From a virus, in the IMG/VR virus record IMGVR_UViG_3300032322_000314, positions 1 to 40,726 of that record: a stretch of DNA of 40,726 nt, one strand, 5' to 3'. Each line of letters opens with the position of its first letter. Positions within the stretch are counted from its first letter, which is position 1. Under the pieces are notes generated by a model. The model worked only from the letters and a program-made list of their open reading frames with translations, searched no databases and was not told the DNA's origin. The position numbers were made by a program, and so were the translations under genes. Below, piece by piece: positions 4,262-40,726 of the stretch.

Positions 4262-4370
4262 GTAGTTGTTGATAAAAAACATAGGCTTGCCAGTCTTGTG
4301 CATGATCTTTGCATATACCATTCAAACAAACACGCCAAACGCCATTATTGTTTGTAATTGTCGGCTCCAA
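4197..4370 (-). CDS. Hidden small gene, 57 aa, unknown function
   Basis: The leftward frame from TTG at 4370 to TAA at 4197 encodes a strongly protein-like sequence with the core GVWRVCLNGICKDHAQDW followed by QAYVFYQQLL. It contains two cysteines four residues apart and many aromatics. The frame is open upstream only a little further, inside the sigma gene, with no ATG available, so TTG (26 bases inside the sigma gene end) is the best start and suggests coupled translation after the sigma gene. It overlaps the rightward HNH gene end by 65 bases. The pattern resembles small conserved cyanophage proteins, but I cannot name a family. Confidence 0.5.
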   Translation of the reverse strand: MEPTITNNNGVWRVCLNGICKDHAQDWQAYVFYQQLLSQSTSPEFLERAQQSTNLDG

Positions 4371-5241
4371 GTGGGGTGCCCGCCAGTGGGTTGCTCATCA
4401 GCATACGGAGTCGATTGATGCCTCGACGTTGAATATCGGACATGGTTGCTCGCTTTAATTTATGTTCATTTTCTAGCTGGGACCACGGAATACGATCACC
4501 AGCATTACGTGCATAAATAATATCTCTTGTTTTCTTATCTAGATACATTTCGCAGTAATCATACAGCAATGCTATTTGGTCGTTATCTTCAACGCTGGTA
4601 TCAATTACATCACTAACCAATTCAAGGATTGTTGAGCCTTCGCCATCATCCTTTGCATTTTGATCCAAGCTTATTACACGATAGCTTTGTTTGATTGCAT
4701 CGGCAATCGTCTTTTCTTCTAGGTTGAGTTCATTGGCTAAATCAGCCAAAGATGCTACTTTGCCATGTGTCTTGGCAAATGCTTCAGTTGCTCGATTGAT
4801 TTTTAGCAGCAATTCATGGATGTTTAGTGGCAATCTAATGATTGGATCAGAGGCAATCAATGCTCTGCTGATCGCTTGACGAATCCACCAGTAGGCGTAG
4901 GTGGAAAACTTGTAGCCTCTTGAGTAATCAAATAATTCAACAGCGCGAGATAAGCCAATGTTTCCTTCTTGTATTAAATCTATCATTTCTAATGTTTGCA
5001 TATTTCTTTTAACGTATCGCCGTGCCACATGGACCACAAGCTGCAAATTAGACTGAATAAATCGCTGGCGTGCGCGCTCTCCACTCTTTAGTTCACGCTG
5101 CTCATGTTTTGTTAATGGCCTATCTAATTTGCGCAATTCAAGCAATCGCGCAACACGTCGCCCAAGTTGTATCTCTTGTTGCGGTGTTAACAATGGAAAT
5201 TTTGCAATACTGTTGAGGTAATCCTTGAGTGGATCAGACAT
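4345..5241 (-). CDS. Phage-encoded RNA polymerase sigma-70 factor
   Basis: A 298-aa sigma factor starting at the ATG at 5241. Region 1.2 is at the N-terminus (DPLKDYLNSIAKFPLLT). Region 2 is highly conserved (IQSNLQLVVHVARRYV, DLIQEGNIGLSRAVELFDY, YKFSTYAYWWIRQAI), with the core-binding and -10 recognition parts intact. Region 3 follows (IRLPLNIHELLLKI). Region 4 is divergent (TRDIIYARNAGDRIPW then RRGINRLRMLM), suggesting altered -35 recognition. The overall form resembles cyanobacterial RpoD/group-2 sigmas. It ends the leftward operon and could switch host polymerase to late phage promoters. It looks more AT-rich than adjacent genes. Confidence 0.9.
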   Translation of the reverse strand: MSDPLKDYLNSIAKFPLLTPQQEIQLGRRVARLLELRKLDRPLTKHEQRELKSGERARQRFIQSNLQLVVHVARRYVKRNMQTLEMIDLIQEGNIGLSRAVELFDYSRGYKFSTYAYWWIRQAISRALIASDPIIRLPLNIHELLLKINRATEAFAKTHGKVASLADLANELNLEEKTIADAIKQSYRVISLDQNAKDDGEGSTILELVSDVIDTSVEDNDQIALLYDYCEMYLDKKTRDIIYARNAGDRIPWSQLENEHKLKRATMSDIQRRGINRLRMLMSNPLAGTPLGADNYKQ

Positions 5242-5485
5242 GACAAATCCGTTGGTACATACAATAGAAGCACAGTTCCACGGTGCTGCCAACGCCCGTG
5301 CGTTGCGTGCACTACATGAACGCAAGGACTGGAATGGCCTGCTGGAATATGCACTGCTGCTGGCTAACCAAGAGGCAAACCAGCGCTCTCAAATCCAATG
5401 GCTAGTGCGTGAGGCAATGCGCTCATGCAGCATCGAGCCGTGGCACCTTGCTGCGGCTGAGGAATTGCTTGCTAGCCGCGACTAG
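5240..5485 (+). CDS. Small helical hypothetical protein, 81 aa
   Basis: The rightward frame from ATG 5240 encodes a mostly helical protein (FHGAANARALRALHERKDW, LLEYALLLANQEAN, QIQWLVREAMR). The frame also opens from TTG 5225, but the ATG is the better start. It begins within the CATG that is also the start of the leftward sigma gene, and it overlaps the 3' end of the dCTP deaminase gene by 63 bases. The sequence is too protein-like to be an accident. It is the only rightward gene inside the leftward operon. Function unknown. Confidence 0.6.
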   Translation: MTNPLVHTIEAQFHGAANARALRALHERKDWNGLLEYALLLANQEANQRSQIQWLVREAMRSCSIEPWHLAAAEELLASRD

Positions 5486-6632: not shown

Positions 6633-6832
6633 GGGTTGATTGGAGTAATGGAGTGGGTTTCTTCAAATGCCAGTACATCCGCTAACGGATACCTGACCCG
6701 TGACTCACCCAACGGCAAGCCAAAGCGTGGGACCGTGTAGTAAGACGGTCCTTGACCGCGCAGCCGCTGAGACTTGATGCTACTTGGCTTCAAGCCCCAG
6801 CGTGCTGCTAATTGTTCAGTCGTCAGATACAA
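6629..6832 (-). CDS. Excisionase/MerR-like helix-turn-helix DNA-binding protein
   Basis: A 67-aa protein starting at TTG 6832. I chose that start because a strong AAGGAGG lies 6 bases upstream; a longer frame to 6850 lacks this spacing. The pattern [27 protein letters not shown], then [12 protein letters not shown] is a helix-turn-helix_17 (excisionase-type winged helix) fold. No integrase is present, so it is more likely a regulator or an accessory of recombination than a true excisionase. ATGA overlap with SSB and a 17-base overlap with the bet gene end. Confidence 0.75.
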
Positions 6833-7559
6833 GGTCAGCCTCCTTCTCAAGCATCTGTTGCAGCAGCTTGTCGTGTTGCTCTTGCGTCAGGTCACCATCT
6901 TCAAGACGTTTTGCCATGCGCGGTTGCAATTCCTCAAGGTCTTGCAGCGTTTTGGCTTTGGCAATGGCTGCAGCACCAGCAGTGAAGGTCTTGCTGGTGT
7001 CCTTGCGTGCCGGCAATGCAGCAGTGGTCACCGCAACCGGCTCCGCATCAGCCTGCTGCATCTCGTCGGTGGTATAGACCCCAGACATGTCAGCAGGGAA
7101 TGCCTTGCGGAGTGCCAATGCTTCAGAGCATTTGGCAATCATCGCTGCAGGCATCTTGGACCACAACCCTTGACCGGCGTTGTAGTCCGCAAACCGTGCA
7201 ACACCAATAAAAGGATGCTGACTGCCTTTGCGGTGGACGATGGTCTTAGCAGCAGCAGGCGGCTTGGTTGAGAGCCATACGTCCCTCCAGTCACCCTCTT
7301 CACCGCACCAATAACTCTCACTGCCATCGAGCTGGCCAGTGCGCTCAGCAATAGCACGCAAGCCGTCAATGCCTGCTTGGATGGTCATCTTGCCGCCACG
7401 CTTGATGGCGTAGATCTGCTTGCTGAATGGGTCAAGCCCAGTACGTTGGCAGGCGTAGGCAAACAGCCGCAGCTCGTCATTGGTGCAGCCCGGTGCAATG
7501 GTGCTGCTGATCAGTTGGACTTGATCGGGCGTCCAAGTGGTAATTGAAACAGTAGTCAT
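6816..7559 (-). CDS. bet: Phage recombination protein Bet (RecT/Red-beta-family ssDNA annealase)
   Basis: A 247-aa annealase starting at ATG 7559. The N-terminal half shows the Bet signature: [59 protein letters not shown], then [20 protein letters not shown] and [11 protein letters not shown]. The C-terminal quarter is Ala/Lys/Glu-rich and helical. It pairs complementary single strands during recombination-dependent replication. Its start overlaps the end of the exonuclease gene as ATGA, the usual exonuclease-annealase pairing. The closing part contains the ribosome-binding site of the next gene. Confidence 0.92.
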
Positions 7560-8350
7560 CAGAAGGTCTCGGTTTGGATGGGATTTGTTGCCCACTTAGG
7601 CAGGCTGATGGTCTGAATGAACGTGTCGCTGTAGCCAGGCCACACGCCTGCGGCATGGCAACCGGCGATCACGTCCAGTGCATTATCCCGCGTGGTCCGC
7701 CCTAATGCAAGCGCATCGGCGTCCAGCTCGTACACGCCAACGGCATGCGGATAAGCCTTCTCGACTGCGACGAACACAAACCGCTGGCAGCGGTCTGACA
7801 GTCCCTCTAGGTAATGCGCCGCTTGGACGTGGTACGCAAAGGTTGCCACACTGCGGGCAAATGCCTGCGGGCTGGCGTCAGTGGTGGTCTTGATGTCAAC
7901 CACCGTGGCGTTGTGATACCAGTCAGGGCGGCACTTGCACCGCATCCCAGTGGCGGTATCCGTCCACCAGAACGATTGCTCAGCTTTGCCATTGGCTAGC
8001 AGAGCAGAAGCTGCTGGGTGGTTGCGGACTTCCGCTGCCATACCAAGCGCTAAAGCCATATCGCTGCTGGTAACAGCTTCGATGCCTTCGGCCTCCATGG
8101 CTGCAGCTTGCTCTTTGCCAGCCTTGGTATTCCGTGCCGCGCAGACGCCGTAGCGCTGCAGCAGCTCGTCAGGTTCAAGAATGGCGCAATGGGTCAAGCT
8201 GCCCAGCTTCATCGCAGCAGTCGGCTCTACCAACTTGCGGTTGGGGTCAACAAATCGGCTCCAGTAGTGGTAAGGCGATTGCATGACCGCTTTGAGATGG
8301 CTGGCGCTGACGGCTGAATCAGCGTGGTACTTCTCGTTGCTGATCATCAT
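7559..8350 (-). CDS. PD-(D/E)XK exonuclease (RecE/YqaJ-like, DUF3799)
   Basis: A 263-aa nuclease. The start at ATG 8350 is fixed by an ATGA overlap with the preceding gene and by GAGG 5 bases upstream. N-terminal [19 protein letters not shown] and [13 protein letters not shown] are typical of this family. The active site is seen as [17 protein letters not shown] (Asp, then Asp-x-Lys) followed by [11 protein letters not shown] (QxxxY motif). It is the 5'-3' double-strand exonuclease partner of Bet. Together with SSB this makes a complete SynExo-type recombination module. Confidence 0.9.
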
Positions 8351-8535
8351 TTCTGCCTCACTTGACGGTGAAGCATGGTCTGCGGTCCGTAGCACTGAAG
8401 CAGCGTCGGAAACGCTTGAAGCAATACCTGCCGGTTGCCTGGATCAGCTACCAAACCTGCATCAGCAAGGCGCGACAGAAAGCCGCCACCAAATTGCTTT
8501 GCAGTTTGAAGCGTCCAGAAGTCATCTGATGTCAT
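8347..8535 (-). CDS. Small hypothetical protein, 62 aa
   Basis: A 62-aa helical protein (DDFWTLQTAKQFGGGFLSRLADA, then VLLQAFPTLLQCYG) whose stop overlaps the exonuclease start as ATGA. No motif identifies a function. Upstream, between this gene and the VRR-NUC gene, lies a 72-base gap with a GC-rich hairpin. A fresh leftward promoter or a processing site may lie there, but I could not identify one. Confidence 0.65.
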   Translation of the reverse strand: MTSDDFWTLQTAKQFGGGFLSRLADAGLVADPGNRQVLLQAFPTLLQCYGPQTMLHRQVRQK

Positions 8536-8560
8536 GGGTAAAATGATGTTGGTAAGGATG

Positions 8561-8582
8561 GGGGGCTTTTGCCCCCTTTTTT
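8561..8582 (+). terminator. Strong intrinsic terminator, rightward orientation
   Basis: Perfect 6-bp stem GGGGGC/GCCCCC with a TTTT loop, followed by six T residues (8577-8582). Read rightward it is a textbook intrinsic terminator. Both flanking genes are leftward, and on their strand the hairpin is preceded by A6 and followed by no T-tract. It therefore appears to stop antisense (rightward) transcription, for example any reading on from the 81-aa gene at 5240. Confidence 0.8.
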
Positions 8583-8606
8583 ATCCTACACCATGCTCCG
8601 CTGTGG

Positions 8607-8954
8607 TCAACCCTGTGCAGTCACAATCCGTAACGCATCCTCAGCTGACCGCGCTACGCCTGCAATGCCGCCTGCCGCCTGCACTGCATCCAGCCACTGC
8701 TGCTGCTCTGGCTGCACCCTGCCGGTTGGGGTCTTGACCTCGATGCTGGTGAACACCGCCACCTGGCTGCCGACCATCTCCGGTGTCACCGTCACAGTGC
8801 GCCAACCGATCAGGTCGGCGCTGCCCTTGCATAGCCCGAAACTGACCGGACGGCCATGCTGGTCACGCAGCGTGCCGGTGTTGTTGCGGAACAGCTTGGT
8901 GTCGCCGTGACTGACCGCAAGGCGGATCTCCTGCTGGATGCGTTGCTCGCTCAC
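8607..8954 (-). CDS. VRR-NUC domain nuclease
   Basis: A 115-aa single-domain nuclease from GTG 8954. It shows LFRNNTG, GLCKGSADLIG (Asp), FTSIEVKTPTGR (Glu-x-Lys) and PEQQQWLDAVQAAGGIAGVA, the standard VRR-NUC order of the PD-(D/E)XK superfamily. Phage members are stand-alone structure-specific nucleases, perhaps resolving junctions or flaps. It directly follows the helicase stop (TGA then GTG), so the two may work together on branched DNA. Confidence 0.9.
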   Translation of the reverse strand: MSEQRIQQEIRLAVSHGDTKLFRNNTGTLRDQHGRPVSFGLCKGSADLIGWRTVTVTPEMVGSQVAVFTSIEVKTPTGRVQPEQQQWLDAVQAAGGIAGVARSAEDALRIVTAQG

Positions 8955-10310
8955 TCATGCTCCGTACCTTTTGACCAACCTAGCCTGATACACACGCTCT
9001 GCCCAGCCGCGCTTGTAGCCGCGTTGTTGTGCCAGCTTGCGGAGGTCCTCAAGGCTCTGCGCGCTGCCTTGCTCGCGTTTGCGCTGGCGTGCGGTCAGCT
9101 CTTGCAACTCACCATCGACCACCTTCAGCTCCCTGGTCTCCTGCGGTGCAAACACATGTCCGCAGTCAGGGCAGACCTGCGTGGCGCTCATGCTGGTGGC
9201 AAAGCACACCGGGCACACCTTGACCGATGGCGCCTGCTCGCGGTCGCGCTTTTTGGCACCATCCAGTGTCCAGTCGCGCTCTTCTAGGTGATGCCCCAGC
9301 CGCAGCGTGTTGCCAACATGGTCCAACACGACAGCGGTTTTGCCATGGCTGGGTCTCAGGCAGCGGCCAATCATTTGCAGGTGCAGGCCGACTGACTGCG
9401 TTGGCCTGAGCAGAATACATCCCCCGACGCTTGGCACATCCACGCCTTCACCGATCAGGCTGCAACTGCTCAGTACCTTTAGCCTGCCAGATCCCAGTGC
9501 TTGCAGCAAGTCTCGCCTGCAATCATTGCTCATCGTGCCGTCAATACTGGCCGCAGCAATGCCTTGCGACATGAACAGCCGTGCTACCGCTTCAGCATGT
9601 GCCACCGAGCAGCAGAACGCGATCGCCGTCTGGCCTGCCAAGTGCTTGCGGTAGTGGCTCACGCAGTCACCCAAGATGGTGCCGACGCGCTGCTCGGCTT
9701 CTTTGATGTCAAAGTCGCCCATTTTTTTGCGCAAGCCGGTGGCATCAAAGCCCGGTGGTGCCAGCACACGGGCACTAGCGAGGTAGCCGTTGTCGGTCAG
9801 CCACGCTGCGCTGGGTCCCAGCACCATCGACTGGTACCACTCCCCAAGTCCGCGTCCGTCGCCTCGTATTGGTGTCGCCGTCACACCCAAGACATGCGCC
9901 TTATGGAAATGCTGCAGAACCGCTGCCCACTGACCAGCATTGGTGTGGTGTGCTTCATCCACCACCAAGAGCTGGAAGAAGTCCCCTGGCAGCTTGTGCA
10001 ACCTGCGGGCAAGCGTCTGGACTGAGGCCACCTGCACCGCATGGCTCAGATCCATGTTGCGCCCTGTTGCAATGCGGCCATGCGTCACGTTCATCCCGGT
10101 CAGCGCCTTGCTGGCTTGATCCAGCAGCTCAGCGCGGTGGACAAGGATGCACACGCGGTTGCCTTTGCGGGCAGCGGACTGGGCGATGTAGCTGAAGCAC
10201 ACCGTCTTGCCGCCGCCGGTCGGCAGCACCGCCAGCACTGTCCGCTTGCCTAGCTGGTACTGCAAACGGATGTCGGTGATCAGTTGTTGCTGGTAAGGGC
10301 GGAGGTTCAT
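8955..10310 (-). CDS. DEAH-box superfamily 2 helicase with C-terminal zinc ribbon
   Basis: A 451-aa SF2 helicase starting at ATG 10310. Motifs in order: Q-like LRPYQQQLI at the N-terminus, Walker A PTGGGKT (about 31-37), LVHRAELLDQ (Ia), VVDEAHH (II, DEAH), LGVTATP (III), then the second RecA domain with AFCCSVAHAEAVARLF, GEGVDVPSV (V) and QMIGRCLRPS (VI). A zinc ribbon CPVC/CPDCGHVF follows at about 365-390. The last 60 residues are basic. It resembles the SSL2/RadD-like helicases of phage replication and repair modules. The ATGA overlap with the upstream gene indicates an operon. Confidence 0.92.
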   Translation of the reverse strand: MNLRPYQQQLITDIRLQYQLGKRTVLAVLPTGGGKTVCFSYIAQSAARKGNRVCILVHRAELLDQASKALTGMNVTHGRIATGRNMDLSHAVQVASVQTLARRLHKLPGDFFQLLVVDEAHHTNAGQWAAVLQHFHKAHVLGVTATPIRGDGRGLGEWYQSMVLGPSAAWLTDNGYLASARVLAPPGFDATGLRKKMGDFDIKEAEQRVGTILGDCVSHYRKHLAGQTAIAFCCSVAHAEAVARLFMSQGIAAASIDGTMSNDCRRDLLQALGSGRLKVLSSCSLIGEGVDVPSVGGCILLRPTQSVGLHLQMIGRCLRPSHGKTAVVLDHVGNTLRLGHHLEERDWTLDGAKKRDREQAPSVKVCPVCFATSMSATQVCPDCGHVFAPQETRELKVVDGELQELTARQRKREQGSAQSLEDLRKLAQQRGYKRGWAERVYQARLVKRYGA

Positions 10311-10864
10311 GGTTTGCAGTGAAGAGTGCAATACTGATAATGCAAATAAATAGCCGTGTCGTTATCCGTAATTGGATCTACATGTGGACGAAGTTTTGCA
10401 TTGTTTAATAACCAAGAGCTGCGCTTGCATTCAATGGTTCCACGGTACGAACCATGTTTTGCAATTTCATACCCCATAGCCCAACCCGCAAGAATGCATA
10501 TTCCTGTATCAACATCAACGATCACCTTGCTCCATGCGCAAGATAGCTTTTGTGGATTTTGCTTTTCATCACTCCAAAGAAAAACCCGATTATTTACTTT
10601 TTGCGTTGCGCGTACTTCCCAAATCTCTCCAACATCAACATCACCAAAGCCATCATCAGTGGACATGTAACGCCAATCTGGCATCCAGCCAAAATACTTA
10701 AGAAGAGCTAACTCTCCTAGTACGCCAATGAATGACCAAATAGCCTTGTCGTTAGTTTTGTCACTGCTGTAATCAGTTGAATTCTTTCGATTTGAATCGC
10801 GTTGTGCCGCACAAAGTCGGCATTCCTCGACCTCCCAAAGGTCCAGTTTGATTTGGTTCGGCAT
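10307..10864 (-). CDS. Unknown protein, possible PD-(D/E)XK-like nuclease
   Basis: A 185-aa protein and the first gene of the leftward operon. Visible features: an N-terminal helix with CRLCAA, a helix GVLGELALLKYFGW, then GFGDVDVGEIWEVRAT, and beta/helix segments SKVIVDVDTGICILAGWAMG. A Glu in a helix, an Asp, and a Glu-x-Arg on the next strand (E-V-R) are arranged as in restriction-endonuclease folds with Arg in place of Lys. That reading is tentative. Composition looks more AT-rich than the helicase next door, suggesting separate acquisition. I do not recognise a named family. Confidence 0.75.
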   Translation of the reverse strand: MPNQIKLDLWEVEECRLCAAQRDSNRKNSTDYSSDKTNDKAIWSFIGVLGELALLKYFGWMPDWRYMSTDDGFGDVDVGEIWEVRATQKVNNRVFLWSDEKQNPQKLSCAWSKVIVDVDTGICILAGWAMGYEIAKHGSYRGTIECKRSSWLLNNAKLRPHVDPITDNDTAIYLHYQYCTLHCKP

Positions 10865-11083: not shown

Positions 11084-13107
11084 CCAGTGACCTACTCGGG
11101 CAGCTAGCAGCGCTGCCGCGCCACTGGTCCTATGTGGCAGTAGACGGTCAGAAGCGTCCATACATGGATGGCTGGCAGAAAAATCACATCACCCGTGCGC
11201 AGCTTGGCAAAGAACTTAAGTCAGGTCGCGCCAAAGCAATCGGTGTCTGCTGCGGTGCCCCCAGCGGTGGTCTGTTGTTCGTTGATCACGACGGCAAGTC
11301 CGCATCTGGGTTGTTTGATGAGTGGGGCATTCCCGTCAGTTCGTTGCCGCCATCATGGACCGTCACCTCAGGCCGTGACGGGCGGTTTCAAGTTATCTAC
11401 CAAGTACCAAAGCAGTACTGGGCAGACATCCGCACTCGTAAATACAAGACCGGCGTCATCGACACCGAAGGCAAGCCCGAGCAGGTTGAACTGCGTTGGG
11501 ATGGCTGTCAGTCCATCGTCGCAGGTGCCCATCCGCTCACTGCTGGCTATAGCTGGGTGCCAGGGCGCTCGCCAGCCGATCTAGACATTGCCGAGGCACC
11601 GGCAGACTTGATCGCACGGATGCTACGGCAGCAGCAGCAGCCAACACTGCCACTAGTAACTGCTGCCGCAAGTGATGATACCGCCAGAGCGCGGTCGTAC
11701 CTTGAAGCGCTGCAGCCCAGCCGCGCTGATGACTACGACGAGTGGCTGGAAGTCGGCATGGCGCTACACAGCGTCGATGATGCGCTGCTAGCCGACTGGA
11801 TCACATGGTCAGCGCAATCATCCAAGTTCAAGGCCGGTGACTGCGAACACAAGTGGCGTGGCTTCAAAGCAGGCGGTGGTATCACCCTTGGCACCCTCGG
11901 TCAACTAGCCAAGCAGGATGGTTGGCGCGGACGGCAGCCGGCAGAGCCGCCACGTCGCAAGCAGCCACCATCAGCCATTAACCCGCAATTGCAGCCGATG
12001 AATGCTGCAGAGCTGCTCAACCTGCTGCGCCATGGCGACAGCACATACCGCTACAACACCTTCACCCAGCGCATTGAAGTAGACGGTGCACCGATTGAAG
12101 GCGCCGAGCGTTTTTACCTCACCCTTGCAGAGATGGGTTTCAAGGTCTCCAAAGAGGTAGCACTCGACTGCATCGTTCAAGTTGCCAATGAGTCGCCCTA
12201 TGACCCCGTCGTTGAGTACCTCGACCGTGTGGCTGCAACCGTAGCGCCCGCTTACATCGAGGCACTAGCAACTGGATATCTGCGCCCAACCGACACGCCA
12301 GGCACCATTTACGACGAGATGCTCAAACGCACCCTGATCGGTGCTGTTGCCCGCGCTTATCACCCTGGCTGCAAGCATGACACCGCCTGCGTCATCATGG
12401 GTGACCAAGGCGCTTACAAGTCATCGTTCTGGGCATGCCTCGGCCATGACTTCTTCAGCGATGCACTCGGTGACATCAGCTCAAAAGATGACCTGATGGT
12501 ATTGCACCGCTCATGGATCATGGAGTGGGCAGAGCTTGATCACGTCACCAATCGCAAGCACGCAGGTCAAGTCAAAGCGTTCCTATCGCAGGCGGTTGAT
12601 ATGTTCCGTGTGCCCTACGGCAAGGCCACTGAAGCTTTCCCACGGCGTGGCATTATTGTCGGCACAACCAATCGAACCACCGGCTTTTTGGTCGATGAAA
12701 CTGGTAACCGCCGGTTCTGGGTTATCCCTACAACTAAAACCCAAGCAGACCAAATTGACACTGCTGCGTTATTGCTTGAACGCGATGCAATCTGGTCCGC
12801 TGCCGTTGCTGCATACCGGAACGGTGAAACCAGCAGACTGCCTGCCGAGTATGAGCAACAGTTAAGCAGCGAGAATGAATCCTATGTTGTCGATAACCCC
12901 TGGCAGGCTGAAATTGAAGTCTGGTTGCGTAAACACGGTGAGATTGATTTGACCACCGAAAAGTTACTAACTGAGGCCATCAAGAAGCCTGTAGAACGGC
13001 AGACCAAGGCGGACCAGATGCAGGTTGCGGACGTGCTCAAGCGGCTCGGGTACAAGCGGTACCGCAGCGGCAAAGGGTCAAGCAGGGCATACGTCTACCG
13101 GAAGTAG
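11080..13107 (+). CDS. Prim-Pol primase fused to VirE/D5-like helicase
   Basis: A 675-aa replication protein. Residues about 15-190 form an archaeo-eukaryotic Prim-Pol domain with the metal-binding FVDHDG (about 66-71) and later VELRWDGCQSIVAGA and GYSWVPG. Residues about 205-290 are a PriCT_2-like linker (ARARSYLEALQPSRADDYDEWL). Residues about 370-600 are a VirE-type helicase: GDQGAYKSS at 441-449 as Walker A, WIMEWAEL as the Walker B region, and GIIVGTTN and NRRFWVIP as downstream motifs. The Gly before the Walker Lys is replaced by Tyr. It should open the origin and lay primers. It lies directly upstream of the repeat cluster. Confidence 0.9.
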   Translation: MTSDLLGQLAALPRHWSYVAVDGQKRPYMDGWQKNHITRAQLGKELKSGRAKAIGVCCGAPSGGLLFVDHDGKSASGLFDEWGIPVSSLPPSWTVTSGRDGRFQVIYQVPKQYWADIRTRKYKTGVIDTEGKPEQVELRWDGCQSIVAGAHPLTAGYSWVPGRSPADLDIAEAPADLIARMLRQQQQPTLPLVTAAASDDTARARSYLEALQPSRADDYDEWLEVGMALHSVDDALLADWITWSAQSSKFKAGDCEHKWRGFKAGGGITLGTLGQLAKQDGWRGRQPAEPPRRKQPPSAINPQLQPMNAAELLNLLRHGDSTYRYNTFTQRIEVDGAPIEGAERFYLTLAEMGFKVSKEVALDCIVQVANESPYDPVVEYLDRVAATVAPAYIEALATGYLRPTDTPGTIYDEMLKRTLIGAVARAYHPGCKHDTACVIMGDQGAYKSSFWACLGHDFFSDALGDISSKDDLMVLHRSWIMEWAELDHVTNRKHAGQVKAFLSQAVDMFRVPYGKATEAFPRRGIIVGTTNRTTGFLVDETGNRRFWVIPTTKTQADQIDTAALLLERDAIWSAAVAAYRNGETSRLPAEYEQQLSSENESYVVDNPWQAEIEVWLRKHGEIDLTTEKLLTEAIKKPVERQTKADQMQVADVLKRLGYKRYRSGKGSSRAYVYRK

Positions 13108-13362
13108 TACCCCACCTAGGTGGGACGGGTACCCCACCTCCTAGTCGCTGAGATGCGCTGCGCTGCAGCCGATGTCGGGCAGGTACCCCACCTGGACCAC
13201 GTCCCACCTCGGTTTCAAACTTCCCTACGTTCCCCTACGCGTCTCTCTATTCCTTTATTTGTTTTGATATAGGTGGGGTTAGGTAGGGTACGTGGGGAAC
13301 AGCCGCTCCGTGACTGGGTTTTGGCGGTACCCCACCTCGTCCCACCTTGCTGATAGGTGGGG
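13108..13362. repeat. Iteron cluster, candidate replication origin
   Basis: A gene-free region directly after the primase-helicase stop. TACCCCACCT occurs in full at 13108, 13130, 13184 and 13328. The core CCCACCT also occurs at 13203 and 13341. Inverted copies AGGTGGG(G) are at 13118, 13271 and 13355, with degenerate ones at 13281-13297. The first pair forms a 14-bp palindrome, 13111-13124. An AT-rich stretch (13249-13271) in the middle is flanked by inverted GTTCCCC (13229-13235) and GGGGAAC (13294-13300). Iterons plus an AT-rich unwinding element next to a helicase gene are the hallmarks of an origin. An operator array for the adjacent RHH-like gene is the alternative. Confidence 0.7.
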
Positions 13363-13383
13363 AACTGCCTTATGGTGCCTGGC

Positions 13384-13656
13384 ATGAAGGAAATCAAAGT
13401 CCGGTTCACGCCTGCAGACCTCGCAGTGCTGGACCAGCAGGCCGCAGCGGCAGGTATCACCCGCTCTGAGCTGGTGCGCTCACGGGCACTTGTTGCAAAT
13501 TGTCAACACAGCCTTACCGTCGCCGGTTATCACCGATTAGTCTCTGACGCGCTTACCAACGTGCGTGGCGATATTCCACGGCGCATGGTTGAGCAACTTG
13601 TTGCTTATGTCATCACATGGATCTCATCCACATCACCGCCAAACAGCAACCCGTAA
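13384..13656 (+). CDS. RHH/MobC-like small DNA-binding protein
   Basis: A 90-aa protein from ATG 13384, 21 bases after the last repeat of the iteron cluster; ATG 13372 is an alternative start. The N-terminus (KEIKVRFTPADLAVLDQQAAAAGITRSELVRSRAL) is an RHH fold: one strand and two helices with the Thr-Arg-Ser turn. The C-terminal half is helical. Its position suggests it recognises the repeats, either as an initiator helper or as an autorepressor. It overlaps the next gene by 40 bases. Confidence 0.7.
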   Translation: MKEIKVRFTPADLAVLDQQAAAAGITRSELVRSRALVANCQHSLTVAGYHRLVSDALTNVRGDIPRRMVEQLVAYVITWISSTSPPNSNP

Positions 13657-13817
13657 TCAACCGGCTCCATGACGCCATGGAACGTGCGCTTGCGTATGCC
13701 GCTGCAATCCGCGACAATGCGCAGGACGACCGGCAGCCCATACCGGCTGAACTGGTCGCTTCCTTTGCTGCCGATTACGACCGGCTTCTTTCCATCCTTA
13801 CCGATGCCGCCACATGA
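13617..13817 (+). CDS. Small helical hypothetical protein, 66 aa
   Basis: The start ATG lies inside the preceding gene and the stop overlaps the clamp start as ATGA. The product is helical (VINRLHDAMERALAYAAAIRD, then ELVASFAADYDRLLSILTDA). It may be a small adaptor within the replication cassette, but there is no recognisable motif. Confidence 0.6.
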   Translation: MDLIHITAKQQPVINRLHDAMERALAYAAAIRDNAQDDRQPIPAELVASFAADYDRLLSILTDAAT

Positions 13818-14857
13818 AACTCATCACCACGCAGGCTGACCTCAGCCATGCGTTGCGCACCATTGCCTCAGCCATCAGCACCGGCAATAGCCATCCGATC
13901 CTGTCCTGCTGCTTGATTGATGCCGCTAATGCCGGCACCATGACCGTCACCGGCTTCAATCTGGACCTTGGCATCACGGTCACCGTTCCTGCTGCTATCG
14001 ACACCGCCGGCAGCGTTGCATTGCCCTATCGCTTGCTGGCTGCCCTTGTGAACCGCATGGACGATGGCGAGCCTGTGACCATCTCAGACGGCTCTGTGAG
14101 CGCCTCCAGTGGCTTCTATGGCCTTGCTGCGCATGATGCAGCCGATTACCCCGACCTGCCGGTTGTAGAGGCTCCTGGCGCTGAGTTGGACCTCACCGCT
14201 GGTGTACGTGCCTGCATGGCAGCCGTCAGCACTGATGCCAGCAAGCAAATTCTCCAAGGCATTCACATGGCCGCAGGCTTCATGGAGGCCACCGACGGCC
14301 ACCGCATGATGCGTGTGCCCATAGCCTTGCCCGATGGCATCGACCTGGTGCTACCAGCAAGCACCATGAAGCTCCTCCAAGATCGCATCGTGACCGTCGC
14401 AGCAACAACCGGCCAAGCGGTCATCGACGCCGGTGATGGCATCACCATTTACAGCCGCATCCTTGATGGTAAATATCCCGACGTGGCAGCACTCATACCC
14501 AAAACCTTCAAGCACACCCTCACCATCGACCGGCATCGCTTTACCCGTTGCCTAGAACGTGTCGCACTTATTGCAGAAGGCCACAACTCAGTCGTTAAGC
14601 TCACCGCAGTTGATGGCTTCATCGTCATCACCGCTGAAGCCGATGCCAACAACGGCAAGGAGCGTATCGACTACGAAGGCGATGGCACTGGCGCTTGGGC
14701 GTTCAACGTGCATTACCTACTTGATGGCCTAAAAGCCATGCGTGGTCACGAAAACGTACTGCTATCCGCCAACTCAGCCACAACGCCTGTAGTATTGCAG
14801 CCAGCAGATAAAACTGGTATGACCTATCTGGTCATGCCGGTGCAAATCAAAGAATGA
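13814..14857 (+). CDS. dnaN: DNA polymerase III beta subunit (sliding clamp)
   Basis: A 347-aa protein, a little shorter than bacterial DnaN. It has three repeats of the clamp fold: ALRTIASAI...HPILSCCLID with LDLGITVTVPA in domain 1, RACMAAVSTDASKQILQGIHM and ATDGHRMMRVPI in domain 2, and FTRCLERVALIAEGHNSVVKL in domain 3. It ends TYLVMPVQI, matching the conserved C-terminal MP motif near the partner-binding pocket. No phage DNA polymerase is present in the genome, so this clamp presumably tethers the host polymerase, or the methyltransferase or nucleases encoded nearby. Confidence 0.92.
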   Translation: MKLITTQADLSHALRTIASAISTGNSHPILSCCLIDAANAGTMTVTGFNLDLGITVTVPAAIDTAGSVALPYRLLAALVNRMDDGEPVTISDGSVSASSGFYGLAAHDAADYPDLPVVEAPGAELDLTAGVRACMAAVSTDASKQILQGIHMAAGFMEATDGHRMMRVPIALPDGIDLVLPASTMKLLQDRIVTVAATTGQAVIDAGDGITIYSRILDGKYPDVAALIPKTFKHTLTIDRHRFTRCLERVALIAEGHNSVVKLTAVDGFIVITAEADANNGKERIDYEGDGTGAWAFNVHYLLDGLKAMRGHENVLLSANSATTPVVLQPADKTGMTYLVMPVQIKE

Positions 14858-16062
14858 CATCCATTAAGGATCTCAAGTCCGACCACAAAAACGCCCGCAA
14901 GCGTACAGATCGCTCTTCCAAGCTGATTGCTGAGTCTTTGCAGCGTTACGGCGCCGCACGCAGCATCGTCATCGACGAAGACAATCGCATCCTTGCGGGC
15001 AATGGCACCATCGAAGGCGCCAAAGCAGCAGGTATCAAAAATGTCCGCGTCATCGAAACTGATGGCACCGAGATCATCGCCGTCAAGCGCACCGGCTTGA
15101 CCGAAGACGAAAAAGTTGGTCTTGCACTAGCCGATAACCGCACCAGTGACCTGTCCGATTGGGACAAGGACATGCTGCAGCAGCTCAGCGAAGAGCATGA
15201 CGTAGCACCATGGTTTGATCCTGATGACCTTGCAGAAATCCTTGGCACTGTCGAGCAGTTGCCTGCCGAAGGCTTGACTGATGCCGACGACGTGCCTGAG
15301 GCGCCCGAGGAGCCGGTTACGAAGCTGGGGGACCTTTGGATTCTTGGCGATCATCGGTTGCTGTGTGGTGACTCGACGGACGTGCTTGCCGTTGAGCGGT
15401 TGATGACTGGAAAGAAGGCGGACATGGTGTTTACGGATCCGCCTTATGCTTTGTTTGGCAACAGTACCGGAGCTGCAGTCGCTGACGACAAAATGATTCG
15501 CCCATTTTTTCGTGATATAGGAAAAGCAATTTTTCTTTCGGCAAAGCAAGGGTCACATTTTTACTCTTGCCTTGATTGGAAAAGTTGGGCGGCAGTCATG
15601 GATAGCTATGCCGGCGCCGGCTTAACGGTAAAAAATATGATTGTCTGGGACAAAGGACACGGCGCACTTGGACAGGCTTATCGCTCGCAGCATGAGTTAA
15701 TTATGTTTGGCGTTTGCGCTAACGCCGGAATCTCAATTACTAAAACCGCTGCTGTCTCTTCCGAGCACCAAATTACAGACGTTAATGTTTGGCAATGCCC
15801 ACGAGAACCCAAACAAGGAATGCACGCGGCACTCAAGCCTCAAGAGCTAATTAAGCGTGCCGTCAATAACAGCAGTTCTAGGGGTGAGCTTGTCCTTGAC
15901 CTATTTGGTGGTAGTGGATCTACCTTGATCGCATGTGAAGACCTTGCTCGCAAATGCTGCATGATGGAGATGGAGCCCAAGTACTGCGATGTCATCATCA
16001 AGCGCTGGGAAGATTTCACCGGCAAGAAGGCTATCCTTGAAGAAAATAAGGAGGCGTTCTAA
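14854..16062 (+). CDS. ParB-domain fused DNA methyltransferase (DPPY-type, N6-adenine/N4-cytosine)
   Basis: A 402-aa fusion. Residues 1-90 are a ParB N-terminal-like domain (RYGAARSIVIDEDNRILAGNGTIEGAKAAG). Residues about 150-395 are a beta-class methyltransferase: GDSTDVL, the catalytic TDPPYALFG (about 195), then a target-recognition segment, and at the end LDLFGGSGSTLIACE (about 347), the SAM-binding FxGxG. It would modify phage DNA, probably against host restriction. From about 15480 the gene turns noticeably more AT-rich, marking a possible recombination join inside the target-recognition region. ATGA overlap with dnaN and TAATG overlap with the terminase small subunit. Confidence 0.9.
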   Translation: MTSIKDLKSDHKNARKRTDRSSKLIAESLQRYGAARSIVIDEDNRILAGNGTIEGAKAAGIKNVRVIETDGTEIIAVKRTGLTEDEKVGLALADNRTSDLSDWDKDMLQQLSEEHDVAPWFDPDDLAEILGTVEQLPAEGLTDADDVPEAPEEPVTKLGDLWILGDHRLLCGDSTDVLAVERLMTGKKADMVFTDPPYALFGNSTGAAVADDKMIRPFFRDIGKAIFLSAKQGSHFYSCLDWKSWAAVMDSYAGAGLTVKNMIVWDKGHGALGQAYRSQHELIMFGVCANAGISITKTAAVSSEHQITDVNVWQCPREPKQGMHAALKPQELIKRAVNNSSSRGELVLDLFGGSGSTLIACEDLARKCCMMEMEPKYCDVIIKRWEDFTGKKAILEENKEAF

Positions 16063-16385
16063 TGGCCGCCCTTAGAGGACCAAAAACTGAAACCCTAGAA
16101 CGCGCTGAACGCTTTGCACGCATCATCGCTAGCGGTGGCCGGCGCTCGGATTGCATCCGCTATGCACGGGATAACTGGGGGGTTAAAGATGATGCCTGTG
16201 ACCTGTACCTGCGTCATGCACGCGAGAAGCTAAAGGCCGACTGGGACATCGAACGCCCGCAGATGGTGGCTGATTTGCTAAGCCAATGCAGCACGCTGCA
16301 GATGGAAGCACGGCGTGCTGGGCAGTATCACATCGCCCTTGGCGCGATCAATACCGCAGCCAAACTGGCGCAGCTCTGCTCGTGA
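16062..16385 (+). CDS. Terminase small subunit (putative)
   Basis: A 107-aa helical protein. The N-terminal part (LERAERFARIIASGGRRSDCIRYARDNWGVKDDACDLYLRHAREKL) reads as a helix-turn-helix with a following helix, the usual DNA-recognition part of small terminases. The C-terminal part (QYHIALGAINTAAKLAQL) is the helical oligomerisation segment common to this group. It is adjacent to and overlaps the large terminase (GTGA). It should bind the packaging start site, which I could not locate. Confidence 0.78.
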   Translation: MAALRGPKTETLERAERFARIIASGGRRSDCIRYARDNWGVKDDACDLYLRHAREKLKADWDIERPQMVADLLSQCSTLQMEARRAGQYHIALGAINTAAKLAQLCS

Positions 16386-32411: not shown

Positions 32412-35400
32412 CACGAATTCTTGGTGCTGGTGGTGGAGGCGGCGGCGGAGGCGGCGGCAAGGGCGGCGGTGGCGGTGGTGGCGGATCAAGCCGCACGCCA
32501 ACGGAAGCCGACGACTCACTCCAGTCAGTTCAATACGCCAGCGTGCTGGATTTGCTGTGCGAAGGCGAAATTGACGGCATCGAAAACGGCGAAAAAGGCA
32601 TCTACTTAGAAGGCACCCCAGTCCGCGACGCTGCCAACAACCCAAATTTTGAAGGCTATACAGTCGTCACCCGCACTGGTACGCAAGCCCAGAGCTACAT
32701 CAGCAACGCGATTGGCACCGAAAGCGAGGAAGGCGTCAACGTTGAAGTTGTTAATGCCACACCCGTTGTCCGCACCATCACCGATTCCGATGTGGATCGT
32801 GTGCGCGTCACACTGCAAGTTCCATCACTGCAGATCATCGAAGATGACGGCGACATTGTTGGCCACAGCGTCCAAGTCCGTATCCAAGTCCAATACAATG
32901 CCGGCGGCTACACAACCGTCGTAGACGACACGATCAGCGGCAAAACCAGCAACCGCTACCAGCGCGATTACATGATCCCGCTGTCTGGTGCGTTTCCCGT
33001 TGACATCAAAGTCATCCGCGTCAGCGCCGACGAATCCAGCACCAAACGCCAAAACCAAACTTACTGGTTCAGCTATACCGAAATCATCGACGAAAAGCTG
33101 CGTTACCCCAACAGCGCATTGGCATTTTTGCGGTTTGATTCCCGTCAGTTCGACTCAATCCCAACCCGCAAATATCTGATTCGTGGACAAAAAGTCCAAC
33201 TGCCCAGCAACGCTACCGTCGATACCACCACGTACTTGGGTCGCGTCACCTATTCCGGCGTCTGGGACGGCACCTTTGGCGCTGCAACTTGGTGTAACGA
33301 TCCAGCGTGGTGCCTCTGGGATTTGCTCACCAACACCCGTTATGGCGCCAGTATTCCAGTCAGCAGCTTGGATCGCTACGACTTTTACGCAATCAGCCAA
33401 TACTGCAACGCCCTTGTTGACGACGGTAAAGGTGGCTTGGAACCCCGTTTTTCCTGCAACCTGCTGATTAACAGCCGCGACGAGGTTTACAACGTCATCC
33501 AAGAGATGACCAGCCTGTTCCGTGGCATCGCGTACTACGGCGCCGGTTCACTGGTGCTCCAGCAAGACAAACCCACCGACTCGCAATATCTGCTCGGACA
33601 AAGCAATGTTGTTGATGGCATTTTTGTTTATAGCGGCACATCACAAAAAGCCCGCCACAGTGTCGCCACCGTTGCTTGGCAGTCCTACGACACTCTTGGC
33701 GAAGTTGAGTACGAATACGTCGAAGATGCAGACGCTGTAGCGAAATATGGCATTATCAATAAAGACATCAAAGCCCTCGGTTGTTACAGCCAAGGTCAAG
33801 CCCACCGCGCTGGTAAGTGGGCACTGCTAAGCGAACAAAACTTGACTGAAACAGTCACTTTCTCGGTGTCTATCGACAGCGGTATCATCCTGCGCCCTGG
33901 GATGGTGATTGACGTTGCCGATCCAATGAAGGCTGGCACACGCCGCAGCGGCCGCGTCAGTTCTGCCACCACAACCACCATCACGGTTGATTCCAGCAGC
34001 AACCTGTCCGTCAACCTGGCAAGCAATCCGCGCATTTCGATCATCCTGCCCAGCGGCAACGTTGAACTCCGCCCGATCCAATCCATCAGCGACCGCACCA
34101 TCACAGTCGGCAATCCATTTAGCGAAGCACCAAACACCAACGCGATCTGGCTCATCCAAACCGATGACATTGAGTCCCAGCAATTCCGCGTTCTCAACGT
34201 CGCTGAATCCGAAGACGGCATCTACGGCGTCACCGCCCTGCAATACAACAGCAGCATTTACAACGCGATTGAAAGCGACAACACGCTGACCACCCGCGAC
34301 ATCAGCAATCTGAGCGACCCGCCCGATGCAGTCAGCAGCATTGATGGCACCGAATACCTGTATCAAGACGGCCAAAGCGTTTTTTCTGGCTTCACCCTTA
34401 GCTGGATCAGCCCCAAAGATCGCGTCTCCGAATTTCGCGTTAAATACCGCGTCGATAACGACAACTGGCAGCAGGTCAACACCACCTCTCCGTCAATCAA
34501 GATCCTCAACACGCATCCCGGAACGCTTTACGTACAAATTCAGGCGTACAACTACGTCAACAAAGGTGGTGCAATAGCCGCCGATCAATTCCAACTTGTC
34601 GGCAAAACCGCCGTCCCCGGCAACGTACAAAACCTCAGCTTTGAGGCCATCAACGCCAACTCCGGTCGCCTGCGCTGGGACGAAACTGTTGATCTCGACG
34701 TAAAGGTTGGCGGCAAGATCCATATCCGCCACAGCAACCTGACGGATGGCAGCGCGAGCTGGAGCAACAGCGTTGACCTGATCCCAGCCAAATCCGGCAG
34801 TGCCACCGAGGCTATTATCCCGCTGGTGGAAGGCGAGGTGCTGGTCAAATTTGAGGACGACGGCGGCCGCCAAAGCGCCAGCGAAACCAGCATCATCATT
34901 GACCTGCCTGACACGCTGGCACCGCTCACGCTGATCAACCGCCGCGAAGATCAGGACACCCCACCATTCCAAGGCACGCGCACCAATACCTTCTACAGCG
35001 ACGAGTTTGACGCCCTGACGCTGGACGGCTCGGACTTGCTGGATGACGTGCCCGATGTGGATCTGCTGCCCACCTTCGACGTGATGGGTTCGGTGCAGTC
35101 TTCCGGCACCTACGACTTCGCCACCACGGTCGATTTCGGCAATACTTTCTCCATCGACTTCAGCCGCTACTTCGTCACCCGTGGCTACTTCCCCAGCGAT
35201 CTGATCGACAGTCGCCTAGCCGAAGTGGACGACTGGAGCGATTGGGACGGCGGCGTGATCGACGCGGTAAACGCCATCCTCGAACTCCGCAGCACCACCG
35301 ACAACCCGAGCGGCACCCCGACGTGGAACGCATGGCAGCCATTCGTTAATGGCACCTTCCGTGGCCGTGGCTTCCAGTTCCGCACCACACTGACCAGCAA

Positions 35401-38271: not shown

Positions 38272-40649
38272 GCGCGTTTCACGACTCTGCACTGGTTGGT
38301 GCTAGCGGCCAGCAGGGCTACCAGATCTCGCGCAGCCTGCGGTTCAACTCGGCGGATTCGGCGTACCTCAACAGGACTCCGGCTAGTGCGGGGAACAGGC
38401 GGACGTGGACGTGGAGTGGGTGGGTAAAAACACTGGCGCCAAGTTCCTCCAACATTCAGCTTTTTTCAACCCCGTTTGTTTCATCAGGAACCAACTCGAC
38501 ATATTTTACTTTTAGTAATGGAACATTAGCCCTTGTTAGCGTCACGGCAGGCGTCAATAGCATTGTGCTTGTTAGCTCGGCCGTCTACCGGGATCCATCT
38601 GCTTGGTTTCACGTCGTTGCCGCCGTGGACACGACCGACGCCACAGCAAGCAACCGAGCCAAATTGTATGTCAACGGCGTGCAGATCACTGCATTTTCGA
38701 CTGCGACTTACCCCTCGCAAAACGCCGACACTTATGTCAACAACAACGTAAGCCATTTAATTGGCGCCATTAGCGTTGACGGCACACCTTCTCAATTTTT
38801 TGGCGGCTACCTCACCGAGATCAACTTCATTGACGGCCAAGCCCTGACCCCCAGCAGCTTTGGCGAGACCGACACCATCACCGGCGTCTGGAAGCCCAAG
38901 AAGTATGCCGGCACCTACGGCACCAACGGCTTCTACCTCAACTTCTCGGACAACAGCGGCACCACCAGCACCACGCTGGGCAAGGACAGCAGCGGCAACA
39001 GCAACAACTGGACGCCCAACAACTTCAGCGTGACCGCTGGTGCAGGCAACGACAGCCTGATCGACACCCCAACGCCCTACGCCGATGGCGGCAATGGCAG
39101 GGGGAATTACTGCACGTTGAATCCGCTAGATACCGGTGGAACCGCACCCGTAAATGGAAATCTAGAACTAACTGCTGGTGCTGCAGAAAGAGGCGTCCGT
39201 TCTACATTTGCCATTCCGACATCCGGACTTTTTTACGCTGAGGCACTGGTCGGAACAAATCAATCGGGGGCGACGGACATTGCTTTTGGTTTGGTAAGTA
39301 GAACTACATCATTGACTGCCAACCCATACAACATCTCAAACGGATGGTTAATTTATGGATCTAGCACAACTTACATAACTAGAAACGGGTCTTCCACACT
39401 TGCAGGAGCCGGAACCGCTTTAGTGTCTGGAGATGTTTTGCAGATTGCAGTTGATCTTACCAATAACAAAGGCTGGATCGGCAAAAATAATACTTGGTTT
39501 AACAGCTCAACTGGCACCGATGGCAACCCTGCGACAGGTGCAAATGCCACTTTTACGTTTAGCAGTCCTCCAGAACTTTTTATTTTGGCTCACTGTTATT
39601 CTTCGACCATAAATGCCAACTTCGGCCAACGTCCCTTCGCGTACACCCCGCCGTCGGGCTTCGTGGCGCTGAACACGCAGAACCTGCCCGAGCCGTCGAT
39701 TAAGAAGCCGAGCTTGTGGATGGATGTAAGCCTGTGGTCGGGCACTAGTGCATCGCAAACGATTGTTAATAGCGGGTTCCAACCTGATCTAGTGTGGACA
39801 AAAAACAGGAATGGAGCCAATCCCAACCTGCTTAACGATAGCGTTCGCGGAATCACAACATACCTACAATCAAATGCAACCAATGCAGAAGCTACCGATG
39901 CAACCAGCTTTACTTCCTTTAACAGTAATGGATTTACGCTTGGGGCAAACACAGGAGGTGGGTGGAATACATCAGGACTCACTTACGTCGGCTGGCAGTG
40001 GAAAGAAAGCGCTACGCCGGGGTTTGACATTGTGACCTATACGGGGACGGGTTCCGCGACAACGGTTGCCCATTCGCTGGGTGTTGCGCCGAGCATGATT
40101 GTGGTCAAAAAGCGTAACGGAGTTTCAGACTGGCCTGTCTACCACACTTCGATTGGAGGCACTGGTGCGCTGCGATTAGACCTGACAAATGCAACGGATA
40201 CAACGTCGGCTTACTGGAACAACACCGCACCGACATCTTCTGTGTTCTCTGTTGGTACAGCAAACGACACAAACGCCAGCAGTGGCACCTACGTCGCCTA
40301 CCTGTGGTCCGAAGTCGCGGGTTTCAGCAAGTTCGGCAGTTACACGGGCAACAACAGCACGGATGGACCATTTGTGTATACCGGGTTTAGAATCAGATGG
40401 CTAATGATTAAGCGATACTCACTTAGCGGCAGTTCTTGGATTATTTACGATGCTGTTCGCAATACGTCAAACGTTATAAATTATTTGCTTCAACCAAATG
40501 CCGCCGACGCAGACTTTACATCATCTGACATTGATTTTGCTGCTAATGGATTTAAGCTGAGAAATACATCTAGCTACGTCAATGCGAGTGCTGACTTCAT
40601 CTACGCCGCCTTCGCGGAAACTCCCCAGAAATACAGTTTAGCTAGGTAG
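38268..40649 (+). CDS. Large adhesin with LamG-like, SPRY-like and DUF7483-type repeats
   Basis: A 793-aa protein that ends inside the right terminal repeat. Residues about 22-215 form a LamG/concanavalin-like domain (SLRFNSADSAYLNRTP, WTWSGWVK, FHVVAAVDTTD, LYVNGVQI, GYLTEINFIDGQ). Residues about 290-480 form a SPRY-like domain (GDVLQIAVDLTNNKGWIGKNNTW, FGQRPFAYTPPSGFVALNT). The rest contains repeats of an adhesin module (QPDLVWTKNRNGANPN..LNDSVRG and VAPSMIVVKKRNG; ends DFIYAAFAETPQKYSLAR) related to DUF7483. AT-rich segments alternate with GC-rich conserved ones. It probably binds cell-surface glycans. Confidence 0.85.
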   Translation: MSAFHDSALVGASGQQGYQISRSLRFNSADSAYLNRTPASAGNRRTWTWSGWVKTLAPSSSNIQLFSTPFVSSGTNSTYFTFSNGTLALVSVTAGVNSIVLVSSAVYRDPSAWFHVVAAVDTTDATASNRAKLYVNGVQITAFSTATYPSQNADTYVNNNVSHLIGAISVDGTPSQFFGGYLTEINFIDGQALTPSSFGETDTITGVWKPKKYAGTYGTNGFYLNFSDNSGTTSTTLGKDSSGNSNNWTPNNFSVTAGAGNDSLIDTPTPYADGGNGRGNYCTLNPLDTGGTAPVNGNLELTAGAAERGVRSTFAIPTSGLFYAEALVGTNQSGATDIAFGLVSRTTSLTANPYNISNGWLIYGSSTTYITRNGSSTLAGAGTALVSGDVLQIAVDLTNNKGWIGKNNTWFNSSTGTDGNPATGANATFTFSSPPELFILAHCYSSTINANFGQRPFAYTPPSGFVALNTQNLPEPSIKKPSLWMDVSLWSGTSASQTIVNSGFQPDLVWTKNRNGANPNLLNDSVRGITTYLQSNATNAEATDATSFTSFNSNGFTLGANTGGGWNTSGLTYVGWQWKESATPGFDIVTYTGTGSATTVAHSLGVAPSMIVVKKRNGVSDWPVYHTSIGGTGALRLDLTNATDTTSAYWNNTAPTSSVFSVGTANDTNASSGTYVAYLWSEVAGFSKFGSYTGNNSTDGPFVYTGFRIRWLMIKRYSLSGSSWIIYDAVRNTSNVINYLLQPNAADADFTSSDIDFAANGFKLRNTSSYVNASADFIYAAFAETPQKYSLAR

Positions 40650-40726
40650 ACAAGATGCCAAAAACCGTAGATATTACCGGTCAAAAATACAACATGCTTA
40701 CCGCCATTAAAAAAACCGGTAGGCAA
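40604..40726. repeat. 123-bp direct terminal repeat, right copy
   Basis: Identical to bases 1-123. It contains the adhesin stop (40647-40649) and repeats the first 72 bases of the HNH gene (ATG at 40655). The HNH gene is incomplete at this end only because the contig wraps round; the full copy is at 52-594. Confidence 0.95.

Follow-up and report, generated by a model that had tools for sequence, protein, structure and literature searches.

SaPI Rep and SCCmec Cch2 have iterons directly downstream of their own genes and bind them via the C-terminal domain (PMC7581432). The alpha protein of phage P4, a fused primase-helicase, binds its origin repeats by a winged helix (PMC4234260). For AEP primase/SF3/winged-helix proteins, including the PriCT2-containing ones of Bordetella phages, recognition of stem-loops rather than iterons was proposed by Berkner et al. 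in 2014 (PMC4234260), and pRN1 and BIP-1 are reported to have a long stem-loop and to be without iterons (PMC4234260). In phage families with AEP-type Prim-Pol/VapE initiators, few origins have been defined so far, and the published proposal is a stem-loop without iterons (PMC4234260).

Here, we describe a repeat array in a viral contig of 40.7 kb (40,726 bases; ‘the window’ denotes this whole stretch of DNA). Sequence comparison, a structural model and analogy with known systems together make it quite probable that the array, at 13107-13362, is the phage replication origin, and that the Prim-Pol/PriCT2/VapE protein encoded upstream is its self-loading initiator, reading the iterons by a C-terminal winged helix. 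The contig bears a 123-bp direct terminal repeat (1-123 and 40604-40726), so it is circular or terminally redundant, and hence probably complete. Its relatives are Synechococcus/Cyanobium phages. Because Synechococcus phage S-LBS1 is the only closely related isolated phage (52% over the whole primase protein) and the only genome-collection match is a contig of a Cyanobium MAG (BJHE01000012.1, our locus L284), a picocyanobacterium of fresh water is the probable host. The primase relative on that Cyanobium contig, which is a prophage or a co-binned phage and offers a clue to the host, has a AGGTTGGAA array of its own.

As with SaPI (PICI) Rep and SCCmec Cch2, short iterons lie directly 3' of the gene of a putative self-loading initiator helicase, and the solved chain closest to the window protein is 7pds, a VapE-like ‘PriRep1 with dsDNA’; the VapE-like domain of the window protein matches Pfam with E=6.2e-64. 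Unlike those systems, the window belongs to a lytic/temperate tailed cyanobacterial phage, its initiator candidate includes Prim-Pol and PriCT2, its iterons (consensus AGGTNRGNN) are inverted around an AT/pyrimidine tract accompanied by two dyads, and systematic coevolution of wing and iteron is documented. The array is best read as a putative initiator-bound iteron origin of the SaPI/SCCmec kind. The locus resembles that of pRN1 ORF904 (PMC4234260) in several respects: the protein combines Prim-Pol, an SF3 helicase and a winged helix at the C terminus; the array, like the pRN1 origin, lies 3' of the gene; and the replication region encodes a protein of RHH/CopG type. The domain order of BIP-1, including PriCT2, is also that of the window protein, but the array is iteron-based. 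Phage P4, compared by description only, is alike in its fused primase-helicase and origin repeats, although its primase is TOPRIM-type. The oriV of RSF1010 is similar in having iterons (RepC), AT-rich DNA, hairpin candidates (ssi) and an AEP-type primase (RepB'), but RSF1010 uses three separate proteins, and the dyads of the window lack support from covariation; hairpins of the ssi type backed by compensatory changes were not found in the window family.

The array begins at the stop codon of the primase-helicase gene (Table 1). The sequence-only reading had proposed an iteron-type origin with an AT-rich element beside a Prim-Pol/VirE helicase, and the repeats on which it relied are present: TACCCCACCT occurs in full four times (13108, 13130, 13184 and 13328), CCCACCT at two further places (13203 and 13341), and AGGTGGG at 13118, 13271 and 13355, with inverted boxes GTTCCCC at 13229 and GGGGAAC at 13294 and 13359. 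The central AT-rich segment (13248-13271, 83% AT) is equalled by only 0.07% of the 24-mers of the window. Degenerate iterons at 13281 and 13290, absent from that reading, form with the copy at 13271 a tandem of three beside the AT-rich segment, an arrangement kept in relatives. Altogether, AGGTGGGG/CCCCACCT occurs six times exactly and five times with a single mismatch within 13110-13362; the exact 8-mer was not found in the remainder of the window, and none of 1000 dinucleotide-preserving shuffles matched the nine copies of the 7-mer core within 258 bp. Short iterons are thus more numerous than chance would give and stand in inverted sets on either side of an AT-rich segment, and the initiator helicase gene lies directly upstream both in the window and in its relatives.

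Table 1. Features of the array and its neighbours in the window, followed by the iteron letters of individual lineages.
Feature	Position or loci	Strand	Evidence or remark
Initiator candidate, Prim-Pol + PriCT_2 + VapE/VirE-type helicase + C-terminal winged helix, 675 aa	11080..13107	+	Pfam PF09250, PF08707, PF05272; closest solved chain 7pds
C-terminal winged-helix domain, residues 605-675	12892..13104	+	AlphaFold model
Wing, residues 658-672, KRYRSGKGSSRAYVY, 15 residues, tracks iteron	13051..13095	+	Partial Mantel 0.605; beta strands 60-64 and 71-75 of model
Iteron GTACCCCACCT	13107..13117	+	Exact copy
Iteron, one mismatch (AGGTGGGA on +), inverted relative to first iteron	13118..13125	-	
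Iteron GTACCCCACCT	13129..13139	+	Exact copy
Dyad element 1, 25 nt, AGATGCGCTGCGCTGCAGCCGATGT, length and symmetry conserved	13151..13175	.	7.8 of 11 pairs vs 2.7-5.1 slid; covariation not above shuffles
Iteron GTACCCCACCT	13183..13193	+	Exact copy
Iteron, one mismatch (TCCCACCT)	13202..13209	+	
AT-rich segment, 83% AT, pyrimidine-rich flank CGTCTCTCTATTCCTTTATTTG, probable unwinding element	13248..13271	.	
Three tandem iterons, 9-10 bp spacing (13271 AGGTGGGG, 13281 AGGTAGGG, 13290 ACGTGGGG), abutting AT-rich segment	13271..13297	-	
Dyad element 2, between tandem and right iterons; weak terminator-like match in window	13299..13326	.	
Iteron GTACCCCACCT	13327..13337	+	Exact copy
Iteron, one mismatch (TCCCACCT)	13340..13347	+	
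Iteron AGGTGGGG, last copy	13355..13362	-	
NikA-like/RHH protein gene, 90 aa, neighbour, not sequence partner of array	13384..13656	+	Pfam PF21983; partial Mantel -0.005
Iteron AGGTGGGGTA	Window clade		
Iteron AGGTAGGGTA	L010, L051		
Iteron AGGTAGGAC	L029-L035		
Iteron AGGTAGGGCA	L037-L039, L046-L052, L130, L132, L163		
Iteron AGGTTGGAA	L152-L158, L284		
Iteron AGGTTGGCA	L122-L142		
Iteron AGGTTGGTAA	L165		
Iteron AGGTCGGGCA	L162		
Iteron AGATAGGACG	L177		
Iteron GGTTAGACGG	L055-L080		

Downstream of the array follow, in order, the genes for the RHH/NikA-like protein, a 66-aa ORF, a phage DNA polymerase III beta-clamp homologue (13814-14857) and a ParB-like/N6-adenine methyltransferase fusion (14854-16062), the last two adjoining the putative origin. 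Genes for RecT, an exonuclease-VIII-like protein and a helicase occupy the minus strand at 6816-10331, and 4345-5325 (minus strand) encodes a sigma-70-family factor of the phage that has regions 1.2, 2 and 3.

Conservation was assessed in 140 loci with a degenerate iteron pattern and a strict test. In 128 of them, no other 500-bp stretch of the locus holds as many iteron-like sites as the 500 bp after the Prim-Pol/PriCT2/VapE gene (a median of 10, against a background of 1.1), and the inspected exceptions among the other 12 carry diverged arrays (GGTTGGGAC in L170, AGAGGGGCA in L146, and the GGTTAGGACG/GGTTAGACGG lineages). Repeats without conservation in relatives, which the sequence-only reading had named as grounds for giving up an origin, are clearly not what we see, and the conservation in about 140 loci speaks for its proposal. 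All close relatives share one layout after the primase stop: left iterons, dyad 1, iterons, pyrimidine/AT tract, tandem inverted iterons, dyad 2 and right iterons. S-LBS1 and some 60 S-LBS1-like loci also have the array downstream of the primase gene, and 93.5% of arrays contain a 24-mer with an AT content of 70% or more. The AT/pyrimidine tract and its tandem iterons do not keep one orientation to the primase gene: they are flipped in many S-LBS1-like loci (for example L122, L140, L158, L284) but not in all (L132, L143). This variable orientation speaks for a DNA element, and not for a main role as leader, terminator or another kind of RNA element.

Two observations concern the S-LBS1 group itself. 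Within 34261-34641 of the S-LBS1 record (L120 8170-8550), the 127 bases that close the record are an exact repeat of 127 array bases; the end of the deposited ‘linear’ genome therefore probably falls within the candidate origin, through either an assembly overlap or a true duplication. Additionally, in several S-LBS1-like phages (L120 8169-8200; L122, L140, L143) a T run comes after the first inverted iteron pair, just past the primase stop, and the pair would double as an intrinsic terminator for transcription of the primase gene.

Iteron letters differ between lineages, among them AGGTGGGGTA, AGGTAGGGTA, AGGTTGGAA, AGGTTGGCA, AGGTAGGGCA and GGTTAGACG, with about 20 natural types over about 140 loci; the variable bases of the consensus are positions 5, 6, 8 and 9. 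Within one array every copy bears the same letters, and the letters switch in concert between lineages. Such uniformity is the pattern expected of binding sites selected for one protein.

The 76 C-terminal residues of the primase-helicase (600-675) fold, in an AlphaFold model with a mean pLDDT of 86.5, into three helices followed by a beta hairpin, i.e. a winged helix. Foldseek matches of this model, taken as supportive only, were weak (best E 0.36); most were DNA-binding domains of the winged-helix type, PhoB among them, and 7pds was also matched. In the model of the helicase domain the ATPase core had low confidence, and this model was left uninterpreted.

Distances between wings predict distances between iterons, with a partial Mantel correlation, controlled for the VapE and Prim-Pol domains of the same protein, of 0.605 (105 loci, 0/300 permutations), a value whose exact significance is uncertain because permutation over loci corrects only partly for shared ancestry. 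The correlation is 0.519 when each distinct (wing, iteron) pair is represented by one locus (n=62) and 0.543 when repeats are called de novo from 7-mers, compared with 0.36 for the helices of the winged helix and 0.08 for PriCT2. Linkage, i.e. the mere fact that the wing is coded next to the array, does not explain the correlation, since third positions of the codons beside the wing reach 0.04-0.21 and the wing keeps 0.58 once they are controlled for. Residues after the wing were excluded from the repeat-distance test because the array overlaps the gene end in some lineages. The contrast of the wing with other domains, third codon positions and the RHH protein, however, is internal to the same data. 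A telling pair is formed by the window, with wing SGKGSSR and iteron AGGTGGGGTA, and L010/L051, with wing SGAGSSR and iteron AGGTAGGGTA, the primases being about 92% identical. Very likely, then, it is the primase-helicase that binds the iterons, through its wing.

SaPI Rep and SCCmec Cch2 suggest, by analogy, how such binding would lead to replication. The C-terminal winged helix would read the iterons, with the wing touching the variable bases; on the oppositely oriented copies flanking the AT/pyrimidine tract, an SF3-type (VapE) ring would assemble on duplex DNA; VapE rings would melt the AT-rich segment; the fused Prim-Pol would then prime; and elongation would use the phage's own sliding clamp together with the host polymerase. 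GC skew, which the sequence-only reading had offered as a check, gives an origin at this place no support: the detrended GC minimum is at about 1.2 kb, with no extremum at 13.2 kb, and the minima of purine skew and AT skew are at 14.6 and 17.0 kb, respectively. We do not count this as a refutation, since gene orientation (mostly one way) dominates the skew in so small a genome.

The proposal of Berkner et al. makes the role of the dyads a question that matters. It is unlikely, in our estimate, that the essential element is structural, with the dyads acting as stem-loops as in pRN1 or in the ssi sites of RSF1010 and the iterons being auxiliary. The 25-nt dyad between the iterons (13151-13175) does keep its length and symmetry across lineages (7.8 of 11 pairs, against 2.7-5.1 when slid), and pRN1 requires a 100-bp stem-loop downstream of its Prim-Pol/SF3/winged-helix gene (PMC4234260). 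However, pairing in this dyad does not exceed that of column shuffles (68.4 vs 67.7%, 159/500), several lineages are without the apical stem, and RNAalifold returned no consensus fold for arrays and dyad segments; nor did Rfam give a match. An extended stem-loop of the pRN1 type without iterons is thus not what the locus offers: iterons are present, and they are the conserved, coevolving part. A palindromic site for a protein, a terminator and an ssDNA hairpin are all possible roles of the 25-nt dyad. Two further ideas about the dyads were set aside. The two dyads (SL1 and SL2) are inverted or direct copies of each other in only some lineages and with mixed orientation, and the dyad core CCTTGCGCTGCAAGG is not a widespread viral or host element, its viral contig matches being at about chance level, none with iterons around, and the Cyanobium assembly containing none.

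A little less likely again is that the array is an operator by which the primase-helicase represses or times its own or downstream genes, with replication starting elsewhere. Coevolution with the wing identifies the partner and not the purpose, and an operator bound by the primase would give the same coevolution; the last iteron, moreover, overlaps a GTG at 13357 that may be the start codon of the RHH gene. Against an operator, the array lies downstream, not upstream, of the initiator gene; the gene that follows differs between groups (RHH in the window group, structural-type genes in S-LBS1-like loci); 12900-13700 contains no match to a sigma-70-like promoter; and an AT-rich segment between inverted iterons is a feature of origins.

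The adjacent RHH (NikA-like) protein had been named as a binder of the array, alone or together with the primase-helicase; letters that follow its wing favour the primase-helicase, whereas a role of the RHH protein is unsupported. Short repeats are what RHH proteins bind, and this gene begins 21 bases after the array, yet we regard it as improbable that the array is an RHH operator serving autoregulation or assistance at the origin. The N-terminal part of the RHH protein has a partial correlation with the iteron of -0.005 (51 loci with RHH; 154/300 permutations as high), or -0.144 given the wing. In L048 (3356-3700), L050 (7028-7320) and L052 (2519-2860) the gene is truncated, with its N-terminal DNA-binding part lost and a remnant TANYHHTV left before the next ORF, and the array is intact; beside the arrays of S-LBS1-like loci no convincing homologue was found, only two marginal matches (E 0.005-0.01). 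An RHH operator or copy-control array, whose repeat would follow the RHH protein and be lost with it, is accordingly not supported, and the array goes with the primase. Finally, a packaging (pac/cos) or terminase-binding site is most improbable: on the circular map of S-LBS1 the array directly precedes the gene for the small terminase, but the large terminase gene of the window is 3 kb off, at 16286, and array letters follow the primase wing.

The generality of a repeat array after the initiator gene was gauged in ten other phages with VapE-type proteins. Strong arrays stand right after the gene in APSE-1 (GGTTGTTAC eight times; L412 3341-3640), Enterococcus phage phiFL4A (ATGGATAC seven times; L406 6284-6700) and Marinobacter phage PS3 (GGGGTGACC seven times; L408 5960-6240), and these three arrays are unrelated in sequence, with no match in the rest of the regions retrieved. 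Repeats after the gene are borderline in Emery, S-2L and a Coprococcus phage, and no such repeats were found downstream of it in Pae_U5, Mica, VarioGold and BPP-1, whose VapE proteins are distantly related; these four weigh against the proposed origin.

Three loci (L026 2240-2779, L027 7037-7577 and L028 7037-7576) have about 270 bp between the array and the RHH gene, and this segment encodes a second copy of the C-terminal winged-helix segment of the primase (MQVAEILRGMGYTRHRIMIKGQRAYVFYP), apparently the relic of an exchange of winged helix and array. We give even chances to a joint reading in which initiators and origins of cyanophages are a diversified set of locks and keys: the 15-residue wing sets the iteron letters, lineages switch these letters over the roughly ten copies of an array, and wing and array form a replication-compatibility cassette that stops related phages from using each other's origins, the second copy in the three loci being left over from a swap.

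One gene family with a candidate origin attached in about 140 loci would amount to a natural code of initiator-origin recognition, predictable from the sequence of the wing. It may also give an easy handle on the origins of other VapE-type phages, as it already has for the candidates in APSE-1, phiFL4A and Marinobacter PS3, and on replicons for freshwater picocyanobacteria.
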